NCBI RefSeq assembly: GCF_029892065.1
Contig: NZ_CP120373.1
Location: 310,001 to 374,000 of the forward strand
Origin: Sinorhizobium garamanticum
GTDB lineage: Bacteria > Pseudomonadota > Alphaproteobacteria > Rhizobiales > Rhizobiaceae
Reading direction: 5' to 3'
Length of the DNA stretch: 64,000 bases
Under the pieces are notes generated by a model, which saw only the letters and a program-made list of their open reading frames with translations, had not been told where the DNA came from and searched no databases. The position numbers and the translations under genes are program-made. Positions 20,850 through 29,695 of the stretch are shown here, piece after piece (position 1 is the first letter of the stretch; every line of letters begins with the position of its first letter).

Positions 20850-21944
20850 TTACGCCTCGATCTGCACGTCGCCGAGCGGCCGCGAGCAACAGGCAAGGAT
20901 GTAGCCTTCCTCGATCTCGTCATCGAGAATGCCGCCATTGTGATTCATCTCGACATCGCCGGCGACCTTCATCACCCGGCATGTACCGCAGATGCCGCCC
21001 TCGCAGGCAGCGCCGATCCGGACGCCGTTGGCGCGGGCCGCCTGCAGGATGGTTTGACCTGGCACGACCGTCACGTCCTTGCCGCTCATGGTGAAGGTTA
21101 CCCGCGCCGCCTCCGCCGAGGCCCCGGCGCCGGGTCCGGCGCGCACCGCAAGCTCCTCGGCCGCCGGTGCAGCGGCAGGCTGGAAGCTCTCTTCGTGATA
21201 GCGCACCATATCGAAGCCGGCGCCCTTCAGCATCTCCCTGACGCCGCGCATGAAGGGTTCAGGCCCGCAGCAAAACACCGTCCTCTCCAGGAAGTCCGGC
21301 GCGAGCAGAGGCAATTTCGTCGCATCGATGCGACCACGCAGCCCGTGCCAGCCGTGGCGCGCCTCATGACCTTCGACGAGAAACCCGAGATTGAGCCGCC
21401 GCATTTGCCGGGCGAGAACCTCCAGTTCGGAGCGAAACAGGAGATCCTCCGGCCGGCGCGCGCAGGAAATGAAGGTGACGTCCGTGTCGGGCGCGCAGTC
21501 CGCCATCCACCGCGTCATCGACATCATCGGCGTGACACCCGAGCCGGCCGAGACAAATAAGTATTTCTCACCCGGATGGCGAACGAAGCTGAAATCCCCG
21601 AGCGGCCCGAGCGCCTTCAGCCTCATGCCCGGTTTCAGATTGTCGAACATCCAGCGCGTGCCGATGCTGTCCGGCTGCGCCTTGACGGTAACGGCAACCG
21701 AGAGCGGACGGGATGGCGAGGATGACAGCGTGTAGGTGCGCATCACCGGTTCATCGCCGACGGGCAGTTCCAGCGTGACGAACTGCCCCGGCAGATAACG
21801 GAACCAGGCAGGTTTGTCCGAGCGGAAGGTGAAGGTCATCACGTCCGTGGTCTCGACCACGGACGATATGCATTCAAGCATATGCTGCCGATCGATCCAC
21901 GGGTGCAACTCATCGAAATGGCGGAAGGAAGAGCCCATTTCCAT
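20850..21944 (-). CDS. gbcB: glycine betaine demethylase reductase-like subunit (FNR + 2Fe-2S), GbcB-like
   Basis: 364 residues from ATG 21944, two bases after the gbcA stop (TAACCATG). Domains in order: FAD-binding barrel with RTYTLSS (69-75), NAD-binding domain with SAGSGVTPMMSM and CCGPEPFM, a linker rich in Ala/Pro, and a C-terminal plant-type ferredoxin with CEGGICGTC and a last Cys in ACC. It moves electrons from NAD(P)H to the Rieske oxygenase encoded just upstream. The domain order matches GbcB of Pseudomonas. A longer start at 22013 would overlap gbcA and is unlikely. Confidence 0.85.
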   Translation of the reverse strand: MEMGSSFRHFDELHPWIDRQHMLECISSVVETTDVMTFTFRSDKPAWFRYLPGQFVTLELPVGDEPVMRTYTLSSSPSRPLSVAVTVKAQPDSIGTRWMFDNLKPGMRLKALGPLGDFSFVRHPGEKYLFVSAGSGVTPMMSMTRWMADCAPDTDVTFISCARRPEDLLFRSELEVLARQMRRLNLGFLVEGHEARHGWHGLRGRIDATKLPLLAPDFLERTVFCCGPEPFMRGVREMLKGAGFDMVRYHEESFQPAAAPAAEELAVRAGPGAGASAEAARVTFTMSGKDVTVVPGQTILQAARANGVRIGAACEGGICGTCRVMKVAGDVEMNHNGGILDDEIEEGYILACCSRPLGDVQIEA

Positions 21945-21946
21945 GG

Positions 21947-23191
21947 TTATGCCACCCGCGAGAGAGGAGCTACGTCGCCCTGCAGCCGGCTCTGCATGAA
22001 GTTGCAGTACCATTCGACGAACTGCATCACGCCGCCCTCGTGCTCGGCCGAATACGGGCCTGGCTCATAGGCCGGCGAGCGGACGCCAAAGGCGTTTTCC
22101 TCGACGATCTGGCGATCCTGGTCGTTGGTCTCGGTCCAGACGTGGATGAGATCCTCGATGGTGTAGTCGACACCTTCGACGGCATCCTTGCTGACCAGCC
22201 ATTTGGTGGTGACCTGCGTCAGTTCCGGCCCGAGCGGCAGCACGCGGAAGGTGATCGCGTGATCGCCGAGCACATGGTTCCAGGTGGTCGGGTAATGGAA
22301 GAGCAAGAGCGTGCCGATCCCGCGCTCGCTGACGCCCGCGGAAAGCTGTTTGCGGACCGCCGCGTGTCCGGACATGGTGTAGCTCTCAGCCCCGTTGATC
22401 AGCGGCATCCGCGTCATCCGGAACTGGCCGGTCGGCGCAATCCTGAAGGTGCTCGGAAGCCCCGCTGCCTCGCACCTTTCCCAATGGGAGCCGATCTCCG
22501 GATCATCCATCGCACCCTGGACACCGGTCACCGTCGGGGCTTCCGGGTAGGTGCGGCAAAGCTCCGGATGGTTGGCAGCGCAATGATAGCACTCGCGGTT
22601 ATTCTCCCAGACAAGCTTCCAATTGCCCTTTTCGACGATCGTGCTCTCATAGGCGACCTTGGTTTCGCCAAGGCGATGCGGCGCGAGGTAGGCTGCGGCC
22701 GTTTCACGGAACGGCTGGAAGTCCATCGGCTGGTCGGCGAGGCTGATGAAGATGTAGCCGCCAACCGTTTCGCAATGGACAGGCTTCAGGCTGTGCTGAG
22801 CCGGGTCGAAGCCTTCGGGCATCTGCCGCGCGAAAAGCAGCTTGCCGTCCAGTTCGTAGGTCCACTGATGATAGGGACAGACGAGCTTGGCCGATGAGCC
22901 CTTGTGCTGCGTGCAGACGCGCGAGCCGCGGTGGCGGCAGGAATTGTGGAGCGCCCGGATCGTTCCCTGCCGGTCGCGGACGACAACGATCGGATAGTCG
23001 CCGACCTGAACGGTAAAGTAGTTCCCGGCTTTCGGAATTTCGCAGTCGTGGCCGATGAAAAGCCAGTCCCTGTACCAGATGTGCTCGAGGTCTTGCCGGT
23101 AATAATCCGGGTCGGTATAGAAGGCCCGGTCGAGGCTATAGCCCTCACGGCGGTTTGTGAGCCGGCGCAGCATATCGTTCTGAATGTCCAT
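21947..23191 (-). CDS. gbcA: Rieske oxygenase, glycine betaine demethylase-like (GbcA-like)
   Basis: 414 residues. Rieske cluster ligands Cys85, His87 (CRHRG) and Cys105, His108 (CPYHQW). The mononuclear iron site is in ENNRECYHCAANHPELC (His203, His208) with a later Asp in NDQDRQIVEEN. This ECYHCAANHPE type belongs to quaternary-amine demethylases: glycine betaine (GbcA), stachydrine (Stc2) and carnitine (CntA) enzymes; similarity seems closest to GbcA. Expected reaction: betaine to dimethylglycine plus formaldehyde. ATG 23191 follows GAGGACAGGAC, which is sequestered by a hairpin, and a cobalamin riboswitch lies upstream. Confidence 0.85.
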   Translation of the reverse strand: MDIQNDMLRRLTNRREGYSLDRAFYTDPDYYRQDLEHIWYRDWLFIGHDCEIPKAGNYFTVQVGDYPIVVVRDRQGTIRALHNSCRHRGSRVCTQHKGSSAKLVCPYHQWTYELDGKLLFARQMPEGFDPAQHSLKPVHCETVGGYIFISLADQPMDFQPFRETAAAYLAPHRLGETKVAYESTIVEKGNWKLVWENNRECYHCAANHPELCRTYPEAPTVTGVQGAMDDPEIGSHWERCEAAGLPSTFRIAPTGQFRMTRMPLINGAESYTMSGHAAVRKQLSAGVSERGIGTLLLFHYPTTWNHVLGDHAITFRVLPLGPELTQVTTKWLVSKDAVEGVDYTIEDLIHVWTETNDQDRQIVEENAFGVRSPAYEPGPYSAEHEGGVMQFVEWYCNFMQSRLQGDVAPLSRVA

Positions 23192-23227
23192 GTCCTGTCC
23201 TCGTTCATCAGTTCGGAGAGGCAGGAC
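23192..23227 (-). promoter_or_regulatory. ribosome-binding-site sequestering hairpin of gbcA
   Basis: On the minus strand GTCCTG-CCTC (23227-23218) pairs with GAGG-A-CAGGAC (23202-23192): ten pairs and one bulged A. The second half is the ribosome binding site immediately before the gbcA ATG. This is a classic translational expression platform for the aptamer upstream. Confidence 0.8.
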
Positions 23228-23315
23228 AGGAACCGACGCCGACAATGATGCCGGCGCGTCAAAGGCTCCGATCCGGCTGCCCGCCGCAACCAGTTACGGT
23301 CGATTTTCGTCCCAA

Positions 23316-23480
23316 GGCTGGTTTCCGGGCTCTGGAGCGGCCCCAGAGGGACCCGCCCGGCGCCTTCCCGGACACACCGTCCAGTGGCCTTTTGCCGTGG
23401 CTTTCGCTCCACCACCGTTGCGGGGGCAGCGCCGGGATCTGACCGGCTTCCCAATTCTCCGCCCTCCCTGGAGCGGCACC
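23316..23480 (-). promoter_or_regulatory. cobalamin (B12) riboswitch aptamer
   Basis: Read on the minus strand, the region has the conserved parts in order: GGTGCC at the 5' edge, TTGGGAAGCCGGT, the hallmark GCTGCCCCCGCAAC (23430-23417), a variable arm with CCACTGG and CGGGAAGGC, and the B12-box-like AGCCCGGAAACCAGCC (23331-23316). It lies 125 bases before the gbcA start, on the same strand, with no gene between. The aptamer call comes from known consensus blocks; folding was not computed. Confidence 0.9.
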
Positions 23481-23794
23481 TTGAGTGTTCATATCTAAGC
23501 GCGCGCAGTGTCTTTCCATTTGCCGATTGACGACATCCGCTTCCGGAAAGACGACACGATATTCTCGTGTTCAATCGCGAAGCAGCCATCAAGATTATTC
23601 ATTATAAACAATGTGATAGTGGAAAATTTAAGCAATTGGCGATTTTTTCGGCAGCGCCATCTCCGGCACGAAGTGGACCGGCCATTTTGCGACATCGTCC
23701 CGAGCGAGCGCCATCGACGAATGCGTTTGAAAAATCATCTGTTAACCGTGAGGGGCTAGCATTCCGAGACGGATCACTTCTTTTCGCGTGCAGG
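23481..23794. other. region between riboswitch and divergent gene, no gene seen
   Basis: About 314 bases. It should carry the promoter for the riboswitch-gbcAB transcript (minus strand; a possible -10 TAGATA lies near 23492-23497) and for the gene at 23795. It is AT-richer than the surroundings from 23560 to 23660, as expected for a promoter area. Confidence 0.4.
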
Positions 23795-27203: not shown

Positions 27204-29381
27204 CTAACCGCCCATCCTGAGCTGTGTCAGTTGCATCAGCGTGTCGGCACTGATGCCGAAACCACTGCTGCCTGACAGGATGGTGGCTGCGGCGGAGACA
27301 TCGGTGTTGTTCTCGACGTCATAAAGCGCGGTGAAGCGCTGCAAGAGTTTTTCGAGCTTCTCGGGATCGTGGAGATCCTCGATATTCATCACACGCTTGA
27401 TGTATTCGGCTTGAATATCGATGTCGCTGCTTGCCATCTCCTGCGGGATGCTGAAGGCGGTTCTGACCACCTGCATCAAGGCGCTGTCGGCAAGAAGGTC
27501 GTAAACCGTGTTGACCTCCGAGGCCATGCGCTTGAAATAGAGCGCCAAGCGGACACCGGCATTGTCCTCGCCGGCGTTTTCTTCCAGCGTCTGGTTGAGG
27601 TAAAGATCCATCGTCGCAATGATGCCGCGCCGGGTCTGGATCTCGCCTGCGGCTCCGCGAGCAAGCTTTCCTTCAATGTCGAAATTGAAAGACGCCACGA
27701 TCTCGCGATAGCGGGTATCGCTCACCGTGTTGATAAGGCTTTCCGGATCATCGAGATCGGAAACAAACATCTCCCTAAGGTAGCTGGTCTCGACGGTCTC
27801 AGGATCGATGCCCGCGGCGACAAGGACGAAATCGACCAGGCGCCGATTACCGAGCAAGTCGTCGAGCGTTTCGATCTTCTGCATCTCGGCACTGTAGTAT
27901 TTGGCCTCTTCCTGCGCCTTGGCCTTGTCTTCGTCGGTGCCAAAGCGGCTCTTTTCGATGACATAGGCCTTGGATGTATTGAGGATTTCGGCCTCGGACT
28001 GTGCAAGTTTCGGCGCGCCAAGCGAGCCGTCGGGCTCGAAGTTGAACGCCTTCGCAAGCTTCACGTAACGCTCGTCCTTGAGAGAGTTGGCATAGCTGTC
28101 GGGGTCGTTGAGATCGCTGGTCAGGACCCGCCGCAGCTTGCGCAAGCTGTCCCCCTCTTCCTCAAGGCCGAAAGCGCGCAGCGTAAGCGTCATCATGCTG
28201 GGATCGTTGAGCAGATTATCGACGCTTGTCAGCGTGTTGATCAGCAGCTTGAACCGGGAGATCAAAGCCTCGTCCGCAGCATCGTCCTTGTCGTTGTAAT
28301 GGATCAAATAGCCATCGGATGTGGTGGCGATCTGCGCCGCGGTCTGCGCGTCGTCGCCGCTGGCGAGCGTGCCGTCGGTCTGGAAATTGAAGGCGGCTGC
28401 CATGGCCTTGTAAGCCTTATTGTATTCGCCGCCCATGGTGTTGGCGTAGCTGTTCGGATCGTCGAGGTCACTGGTCAGGATATTCTCGACGGTCGTCGTC
28501 AAGGTGCTCGGCGGCAGTCCGAAAGCGGTCACCACATAACTCAGCAAACGGGCATCGGCCTTCAACGCGGCGACCGTCGTGATGCTACCGATCTTCGACT
28601 CATAATAGCTCTTGTTGAGCAGGGCCTCGGCAGAGGTAACACGGTCGCTGGCGTTGAGGATGTAGCTCTCGTTGATGGCGCTCTTTTGCGTCGCGCTTTG
28701 CGGCAGCGTGCTGGCGGGCAGGCTCCCGTCGGTCTGGAAATTGAACGCCTTCGCGAAATTCAGCGCCGTGTTGCTGCCGAGCTTGTTAACGTAGCTGTTC
28801 GGATCGTTGACGTCGCTCGTCAGAATCTGTCTCAAATGGGAATAGGACGTGTATTTGGGATCGAAACCGAAGGCCTTCATCGCATAGGTCCTGAGGCGCT
28901 CATTGCCCAGGAACTGGTCGACATTCGTCACGGTATCGATGACCGCGTTGTAGTAGCTCGTCTCGGCATTGAGCACATTCGACTCGTTGGCGATCGTCTC
29001 GCTGTAAAGCCCGATCAGCGCATCGGTCTGGGCGTCGGTCTGCGCAACGGCGGTAGACGAGCCGAAACTGAACGCTTCGGCGAAATTGCGATACCGCTCG
29101 TCCGTCAGGCGATTGGCAAAGCTGTTGTCGTCTGCAAGATCGCTCTCGAGGACCTTTCGCATGAAAGCGACCGCATAGGTCATGTCCTCAAGGCCGTGGG
29201 CCTTCATTGCGTAGGAATAGAGACGGTAATCGTCGAGAAATTCGTCGACCGACGTCACCTTGCCGATATTCGATTTGTAGTATTCGGCCTCGCGCGCAAC
29301 CAGCGGCTGGATCGACACGCGATTGAGACTGACCCTCATGTCGCGGGTGATGAGATTGTAGTCGATATAGGTCGAAACCAT
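27204..29381 (-). CDS. DUF1217-family protein with six repeat units
   Basis: 725 residues from ATG 29381 (AAGGCGG upstream). About six units of 105-120 residues follow one another. Each has a start like YYKSNIGKVTSVDEFL, then AMKAFG, and the hallmark SDLxDPxSYAN motif, seen at residues 80-89, 189-198, 304-313, 422-431, 541-550 and, degenerate, 669-674; four copies continue with KAFNFQTDGSL. DUF1217 proteins occur in flagellar gene clusters of rhizobia, usually with fewer units; function unknown. No signal peptide is visible, and the N-terminus starts MVSTYIDYNLITRDM. Confidence 0.85.
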   Translation of the reverse strand: MVSTYIDYNLITRDMRVSLNRVSIQPLVAREAEYYKSNIGKVTSVDEFLDDYRLYSYAMKAHGLEDMTYAVAFMRKVLESDLADDNSFANRLTDERYRNFAEAFSFGSSTAVAQTDAQTDALIGLYSETIANESNVLNAETSYYNAVIDTVTNVDQFLGNERLRTYAMKAFGFDPKYTSYSHLRQILTSDVNDPNSYVNKLGSNTALNFAKAFNFQTDGSLPASTLPQSATQKSAINESYILNASDRVTSAEALLNKSYYESKIGSITTVAALKADARLLSYVVTAFGLPPSTLTTTVENILTSDLDDPNSYANTMGGEYNKAYKAMAAAFNFQTDGTLASGDDAQTAAQIATTSDGYLIHYNDKDDAADEALISRFKLLINTLTSVDNLLNDPSMMTLTLRAFGLEEEGDSLRKLRRVLTSDLNDPDSYANSLKDERYVKLAKAFNFEPDGSLGAPKLAQSEAEILNTSKAYVIEKSRFGTDEDKAKAQEEAKYYSAEMQKIETLDDLLGNRRLVDFVLVAAGIDPETVETSYLREMFVSDLDDPESLINTVSDTRYREIVASFNFDIEGKLARGAAGEIQTRRGIIATMDLYLNQTLEENAGEDNAGVRLALYFKRMASEVNTVYDLLADSALMQVVRTAFSIPQEMASSDIDIQAEYIKRVMNIEDLHDPEKLEKLLQRFTALYDVENNTDVSAAATILSGSSGFGISADTLMQLTQLRMGG

Positions 29382-29695
29382 GCCGCCGCCTTGTCGATTG
29401 CCAGCGGGCCTAAGCCCACCAAAACAGAATTCTGACGCCACATCATGTCGCCGGAGACTTGTGTGTGGCTTTTCCGGCGCTCGTTCGCTGTTCAAAAAAT
29501 CCCGGCAATTTCGTTGACGAAGAAGAAACCTTGACGGGTCGGCTTTTGCTAACCATCGGGCTACGCAAAGTTTTTTTAACCGCGATTTTTAAGCCGTCCG
29601 GAAGAGCGGCTGCCTATTCTCCCGCCCATAGAGGACGAAAAGTCCCGACGAGAAGACCGGGAACCGGCTCTCAAGGAAAAACAAGGGCGATTGAA
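29382..29695. other. divergent intergenic region, candidate promoter only
   Basis: 314 bases between two divergent genes. TTGACG at 29532-29537 followed by T-rich sequence up to 29580 could be part of a plus-strand promoter. The stretch TTTTTTTAACCGCGATTTTT near 29570 is strikingly AT-rich for this genome. No open frame is convincing. Confidence 0.35.

Follow-up and report, generated by a model that had tools for sequence, protein, structure and literature searches.

A conserved cobalamin riboswitch ahead of gbcAB-like demethylase genes pairs with corrinoid methyltransferase genes and may switch betaine use between two routes

For methionine synthase and some other enzymes, cobalamin riboswitches are known to select between a form that needs B12 and one that does not; metE, mesD and nrdAB encode B12-free isozymes. 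The class 'isozymes of B12-dependent enzymes' is named as such in PMC3766115, in whose main text neither 'betaine' nor 'oxygenase' occurs. Aerobic betaine demethylation by the MtgBCD system was described in Ruegeria pomeroyi with mutants and proteomics, and mtgC and mtgD mutants lost growth on betaine (PMC12478193). In Sinorhizobium meliloti the cobalamin riboswitches taken from Rfam include one before SMc00982 (PMC2245857, PMC2573895), cited since 2007 as a location without function (PMC2245857); SMc00982 has been described as a likely dioxygenase (PMC2848018) and SMc00981 as a putative ferredoxin (PMC12542648). Gene order and comparison with S. medicae (L097) suggest that SMc00982/SMc00981 is the S. 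meliloti orthologue of gbcAB. A preliminary description of the present locus took its regulation to be undescribed; this has to be amended as regards the location, which is in print (PMC2245857), and stands as regards function, for which no explanation was found among the papers listed. Among the matches listed in a search of mostly freely available papers, with supplementary regulon tables outside its scope, no paper joining a cobalamin riboswitch to gbcAB was recognised.

The window, i.e. the whole stretch of 64,000 nucleotides from Sinorhizobium garamanticum that was analysed (contig NZ_CP120373.1, positions 310,001 to 374,000), was scanned with cmscan against Rfam and gave a single match above gathering, a cobalamin riboswitch (RF00174) with 109.4 bits (gathering score 31.5; E 1.7e-26) that covers the complete model (Table 1). 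The preliminary description had placed a cobalamin riboswitch at 23316-23480 on the gbcA strand; this covariance search confirmed it with a match on the minus strand, and the span falls inside the match. The ATG of gbcA at 23191 lies 107 nt downstream of the aptamer end. In a mechanical list of open reading frames, two of at least 100 aa, 22786-23592 (-) and 23184-23498 (+), overlap the leader stretch; both read across the aptamer or gbcA in a different frame and are regarded as shadows, and apart from these two the list has nothing else between aptamer and gbcA, in agreement with the earlier statement that no gene intervenes. The genome (6.83 Mb) contains five RF00174 matches. The four besides that at gbcA lie before or near genes for an ABC transporter, bluB, cbtA, and adenosylcobinamide kinase and cobW, the last of these matches (31.0 bits) being slightly under the cut-off; the parts of the ABC transporter resemble putative F420-0 transporters and, to a lesser degree, corrinoid transporters, with every score below cut-off. 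On the available annotation, only the gbcAB locus among the five shows no tie to B12 or cobalt. Elsewhere in the window (27204-29495, minus strand) a 763-aa protein composed of five DUF1217 stretches is encoded.

Table 1. Coordinates of the features in the window and of the isozyme clusters at related loci
Feature	Position	Strand	Basis
Complete cobalamin riboswitch aptamer, RF00174	23299..23498	-	covariance match, model 1-189/189
Core block GCTGCCCCCGCAAC	23417..23430	-	sequence, aligned to RF00174 consensus
B12 box AGCCCGGAAACCAGCC	23316..23331	-	sequence, aligned to RF00174 consensus
Predicted expression platform, hairpin TGTCCTGCCTC / GAGGACAGGACA	23191..23228	-	minimum-energy and centroid structures
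gbcA-like Rieske oxygenase subunit, 414 aa	21947..23191	-	GbcA NF058607; PF00355 and PF00848
gbcB-like reductase subunit, 364 aa	20850..21944	-	GbcB NF058606; FAD, NAD and 2Fe-2S ferredoxin domains
Isozyme clusters, each unit with its own cobalamin riboswitch	L063:3677-13632, L143:73-10440, L075:1681-14146, L085:3312-9105		

The two subunits are encoded back to back (gbcA ends at 21947, gbcB begins at 21944) and have the Rieske and catalytic domains of the oxygenase and the FAD, NAD and 2Fe-2S domains of the reductase. Like the GbcAB proteins of Pseudomonas and Chromohalobacter, they have GbcA and GbcB as best curated NCBIfam families, near full length; unlike these, they score below the curated cut-offs (514.6 bits against 670 for GbcA, 399.7 against 500 for GbcB), as do the GbcA orthologues from two other genomes (514.2 and 526.9 of 670). 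The nearest named GbcA was that of Ensifer sp. IC4062 (96% identical; the scan may omit near-identical genomes). Compared with solved structures, the window's GbcA gave 545 bits to 3n0q and 521 bits to 3vca/4qup, whose entry titles read ring-hydroxylating dioxygenase and demethylase and which we take to be the stachydrine (proline betaine) demethylase Stc2, likewise a Rieske demethylase. The Stc2 orthologue is, however, a second gene of the genome on contig C2 (G000:C2:1021497-1022675; L090, L226), 57% identical to the window's GbcA and with 838.9 bits to 3vca; no riboswitch motif was found near its locus. This paralogue, which serves as a control from the same genome, is accompanied by a reductase gene of its own and by a LysR-type regulator in divergent orientation. 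Identification of the window protein as GbcA proper was rejected on the curated cut-offs, and as Stc2 proper because the C2 gene is the true orthologue (838.9 against 521 bits). Since it falls below the GbcA cut-off and the Stc2 orthologue lies elsewhere in the genome, the window's oxygenase is classed by sequence as a GbcA-like demethylase of a third group. Its substrate is likely glycine betaine; as both subunits fall below the betaine monooxygenase cut-offs, it could also be another betaine.

The stretch that follows the aptamer (23298-23180) folds better than 200 of 200 shuffled sequences (z -3.27). The predicted hairpin ahead of gbcA pairs most of the Shine-Dalgarno sequence GAGGA (23202-23198) and extends to the A of the start codon, with a predicted pairing probability of the Shine-Dalgarno sequence of 0.80. 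Across 117 loci the median of this predicted pairing was 0.91 in 80 loci with the riboswitch and 0.52 in 37 others; for pairing to upstream bases the values were 0.91 and 0.25 (p 1e-13, kinship not corrected for). By computation, a Shine-Dalgarno hairpin is common among the riboswitch loci, pairing being predicted above 0.7 in 65 of the 80 and in 3 of the 37; the 15 riboswitch loci not above this value include a close relative (G045) with only 0.24. A terminator was sought and none was found, and control of gbcA by termination was rejected on this ground; no promoter was recognised. In the window, a short stretch that could form an L5-L13 kissing loop in the ribosome-site hairpin can be picked out, but by eye it was inconsistent in other leaders, and this candidate was dropped. 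The predicted hairpin, together with the comparison of loci with and without riboswitch, suggests translational repression by bound cobalamin.

A B12-dependent counterpart is encoded in the same genome, which contains four MttB-superfamily genes (PF06253, above cut-off). One of these adjoins the gene of a corrinoid protein with MtgC as best family (211.6 bits of 370, below cut-off), and the same stretch holds a betaine-homocysteine methyltransferase/MtgE-like gene (578.3 bits, cut-off 338) and a betaine/choline ABC ATPase gene. The sole curated match of the MtgB homologues was the trimethylamine methyltransferase model, below cut-off; the mtgC-linked one scored 285.2 bits of 525. Among solved structures, the mtgC-linked MtgB homologue is nearest to 4yyc (1156.6 bits; 'Putative trimethylamine methyltransferase') and then to 2qne (421.5 bits; 'Putative methyltransferase'); it gave 419 bits to the glycine betaine methyltransferase 9yce as against 141 bits to trimethylamine methyltransferases (7xcl). 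GbcAB and MtgBC would share one substrate. Methionine synthase is present as MetH, and no match to the catalytic domain of cobalamin-independent methionine synthase (MetE; PF01717) was obtained in this genome. A second MttB-superfamily gene (G000:C1:390897-392390; L094:4807-8430) lies 17 kb past the window end and is followed on the same strand by a gene for an OYE/FadH-like flavin oxidoreductase.

Related genomes were compared in three samples. The family set came from a GbcA search of 121 genomes, in which 58 matched at E 1e-60 and the 43 with at least 65% identity were counted; among the 15 weaker-match genomes left out of the counts, three loci (L089, L091, L092) have no riboswitch motif directly ahead of the gene, and PF06253 is present in the genomes of two of these loci (G090, G098). 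The riboswitch precedes gbcA in 28 of the 43 genomes (the window's own, 26 identified by motif, and L024/G061 by Rfam alone with 68.8 bits); 25 of the 28 were confirmed with Rfam, L080, L081 and L087 rest on the motif, and all 15 negatives were run with Rfam. PF06253 was found in 27 of the 28 genomes with riboswitch and in 1 of the 15 without (Fisher p 2.8e-9). Exactly the 28 PF06253-positive genomes also have mtgC, which gives the same proportions (27/28 and 1/15), and each of them has, as read from positions, a PF06253 gene at most about 6 kb from mtgC. All 15 riboswitch-less genomes retain between one and five cobalamin riboswitches at other loci, and it is thus specifically at gbcA that the element was lost. 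The named set consisted of the best 80 loci from a scan of GTDB species genomes. The riboswitch was found at 55 of these, mostly by motif (L107, with 57.9 bits, and L143 were also run with Rfam); 54 of the 55 match the core and box motifs without mismatch, and L107 is degenerate. The other 25 loci were all Rfam-negative; with L112 dropped from this count, PF06253 was present in 53 of 54 with riboswitch and in 1 of 25 without. Loci with riboswitch include Ensifer/Sinorhizobium, Shinella, Mesorhizobium, Aminobacter, Pannonibacter and several Rhizobium species, and those without include Agrobacterium, the Rhizobium phaseoli/ruizarguesonis-type group, A. vitis, Xaviernesmea and Ciceribacter lividus. 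For the order set, 199 genomes were searched, of which 22 matched at E 1e-120 and 19 were new, and none of the contigs with new loci has the same length as any contig in the other two samples; PF06253 was found in 11 of 11 with riboswitch and 1 of 8 without (Fisher p 1.6e-4; GbcA identity was only 52-59% in 2 of the 11 and 5 of the 8).

Taken jointly, with five named-set rows that repeat family-set proteins counted once, the counted gbcA homologue is preceded by the riboswitch in 91 of 136 genomes, and its presence there is therefore not chance; the preliminary description had named the occurrence of the riboswitch in related genomes as a check. The riboswitch occupies this conserved place in many genera and in seven family groups (f1, f5, f14, f23, f28, f44, f50) and pairs almost exclusively with genomes that carry PF06253 and mtgC: PF06253 is present in 89 of the 91 genomes with riboswitch and in 3 of the 45 without, so that where the counterpart is absent the riboswitch is mostly absent as well (42 of 45 riboswitch-less genomes are without PF06253). 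The exceptions are G102, L121 and G384, with PF06253 and without riboswitch, and two sister rows, G094 (L021; 61.3 bits) and L107, with riboswitch and without PF06253. The latter two have the lowest scores among the gbcA riboswitches run with Rfam, which looks like possible decay. On the best gene tree, which holds 117 distinct GbcA sequences, the riboswitch changed 11 times and PF06253 9 times, 8 of the changes being on shared branches; Pagel's model of correlated evolution fitted better (LR 35.6, p 3.5e-7, chi-square approximation). When only strongly supported branches were used, 5 independent pairs were left, too few for significance, with on average 3.4 in the same direction, 0 opposite and 1.6 without difference.

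The surroundings of gbcA were scanned for further riboswitches at 147 loci of 3.8-17 kb each, and one or two were found in 11 (9 distinct genomes; raw counts). In L063 (the same genome as L158) and L143, metE, gbcAB and nrdAB, each behind a riboswitch, lie together within about 10 kb; in L075 riboswitched nrdAB and mesXD, and in L085 riboswitched metE, accompany the riboswitched gbcAB. Immediately upstream of the riboswitch and gbcA there is nrdB in L207, L213 and L214, which belong to two other families of the order, and in L065 and L139 a second riboswitch precedes a btuB-type receptor gene. Apart from the clusters of B12 isozymes, the commonest neighbours of gbcA, two of which were annotated in the window, gave no clue to the substrate. 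Just downstream of the riboswitched gbcAB of L075 there is a second Rieske oxygenase gene (L075:9893-11149), 272.7 bits to the GbcA model and far below its cut-off. In seven genomes (L064, the same genome as L114, L065, L079, L081, L084, L115 and L139) metH adjoins gbcAB or is at most about 7 kb away; the L064 gene was confirmed and the others were recognised by likeness to it.

We consider it highly probable that the riboswitch represses gbcAB and that betaine is handled by the corrinoid MtgBC route when B12 is rich and by GbcAB as a stand-in when it is poor. With cobalamin plentiful, the leader hairpin would keep the ribosome-binding site of gbcA hidden and little GbcAB would be translated, while glycine betaine, or a close quaternary amine, would be demethylated by the MtgB methyltransferase with the MtgC corrinoid protein. 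With cobalamin low, the hairpin would open and GbcAB would take over, forming dimethylglycine and formaldehyde with O2 and NAD(P)H and using no B12; betaine use would continue and the scarce B12 would be left for MetH and other B12 enzymes. The response to the ligand, its direction, the substrate and the sparing of B12 are what we infer here from the arrangement and distribution of the genes. The preliminary suggestion that GbcAB replaces a B12-dependent route at low B12 is well supported by the distribution of PF06253 (89/91 against 3/45) and of mtgC (27/28 against 1/15) and by the riboswitched metE, mesXD or nrdAB nearby in four genomes.

The same switch might work on another shared quaternary amine, e.g. 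carnitine, gamma-butyrobetaine or a plant betaine, which we regard as possible but distinctly less probable. That the window's GbcA misses the GbcA cut-off and lies at nearly the same distance from Stc2, that the genome has four PF06253 proteins, and that the solved entry nearest to the mtgC-linked one is named a putative trimethylamine methyltransferase (4yyc) would suit such a substrate; against this, the best families are still GbcA and GbcB, the separate Stc2 orthologue on C2 (838.9 bits to 3vca) has no riboswitch motif nearby, the mtgC-linked protein, once 4yyc and 2qne with their putative names are passed over, favours glycine betaine over trimethylamine methyltransferases (419 against 141 bits), and in Ruegeria pomeroyi it is growth on betaine that mtgC and mtgD mutants lose (PMC12478193). 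The methyl supply for methionine that the preliminary description had offered as a second example, with the oxygenase feeding one-carbon units to a B12-free methionine synthase in B12 shortage, would fit the metE or mesXD genes near gbcAB in L063/L158, L143, L085 and L075, but is not favoured and in our judgement improbable, because PF01717 has no match in the window's genome and the methionine synthase there, MetH, needs B12.

Two further readings detach the riboswitch from betaine use altogether. It could be a passenger inherited from a neighbourhood of B12 genes and without adaptive role at gbcA, for which the minority of loci with another riboswitch near gbcAB (the 11 of 147 rows, 9 distinct genomes, noted above) would speak; but an element kept over many genera and in seven family groups, lost mainly together with PF06253 (8 shared branches) and free of mismatches in B12 box and core motifs at 54 of 55 named loci makes mere inheritance very improbable. 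Still harder to credit is an action of GbcAB inside B12 metabolism, e.g. on a corrinoid or on the lower ligand of one: elsewhere in the genome the four further riboswitch matches do precede or lie near genes that make B12, transport cobalt or encode a possible corrinoid ABC transporter, but genomes without the gbcA riboswitch keep gbcAB and B12 riboswitches elsewhere, and the nearest protein families are quaternary-amine demethylases.

If the switch between MtgBC and GbcAB operates as proposed, the methyl group would be kept on folate when B12 is ample and lost as formaldehyde when it is scarce. The function switched would be the use of a common osmolyte, with the B12 level deciding whether its methyl is saved or burnt; this is a direct prediction for rhizobia, in which the breakdown of betaine is known to be intertwined with methionine synthesis, and the riboswitch before gbcA would be a sequence marker for genomes that own both routes. 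With somewhat less assurance, we lean towards the wider view that across many families of one order a riboswitch picks between two chemistries for one nutrient, corrinoid transfer and oxygenation, that GbcAB is a new catabolic B12-independent back-up beside MetE, MesXD and NrdAB, and that it could be the second route of betaine use in Sinorhizobium meliloti, so far unexplained. Compared with the MtgBCD(E) system of corrinoid betaine demethylation and methionine synthesis (PMC12478193), the window's genome likewise has PF06253, MtgC-type and BHMT/MtgE-like genes, with an MtgC homologue below the curated cut-off; that system is B12-dependent, whereas gbcAB is its proposed substitute. As with the riboswitched metE and nrdAB isozymes described in PMC3766115, an RF00174 element precedes a B12-free enzyme with a B12-dependent counterpart in the genome, and in four genomes gbcAB clusters with riboswitched metE, mesXD or nrdAB themselves; unlike those isozymes, GbcAB is a catabolic oxygenase whose counterpart is the corrinoid methyltransferase MtgBC. 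The control is of a known kind, on an unexpected catabolic target.
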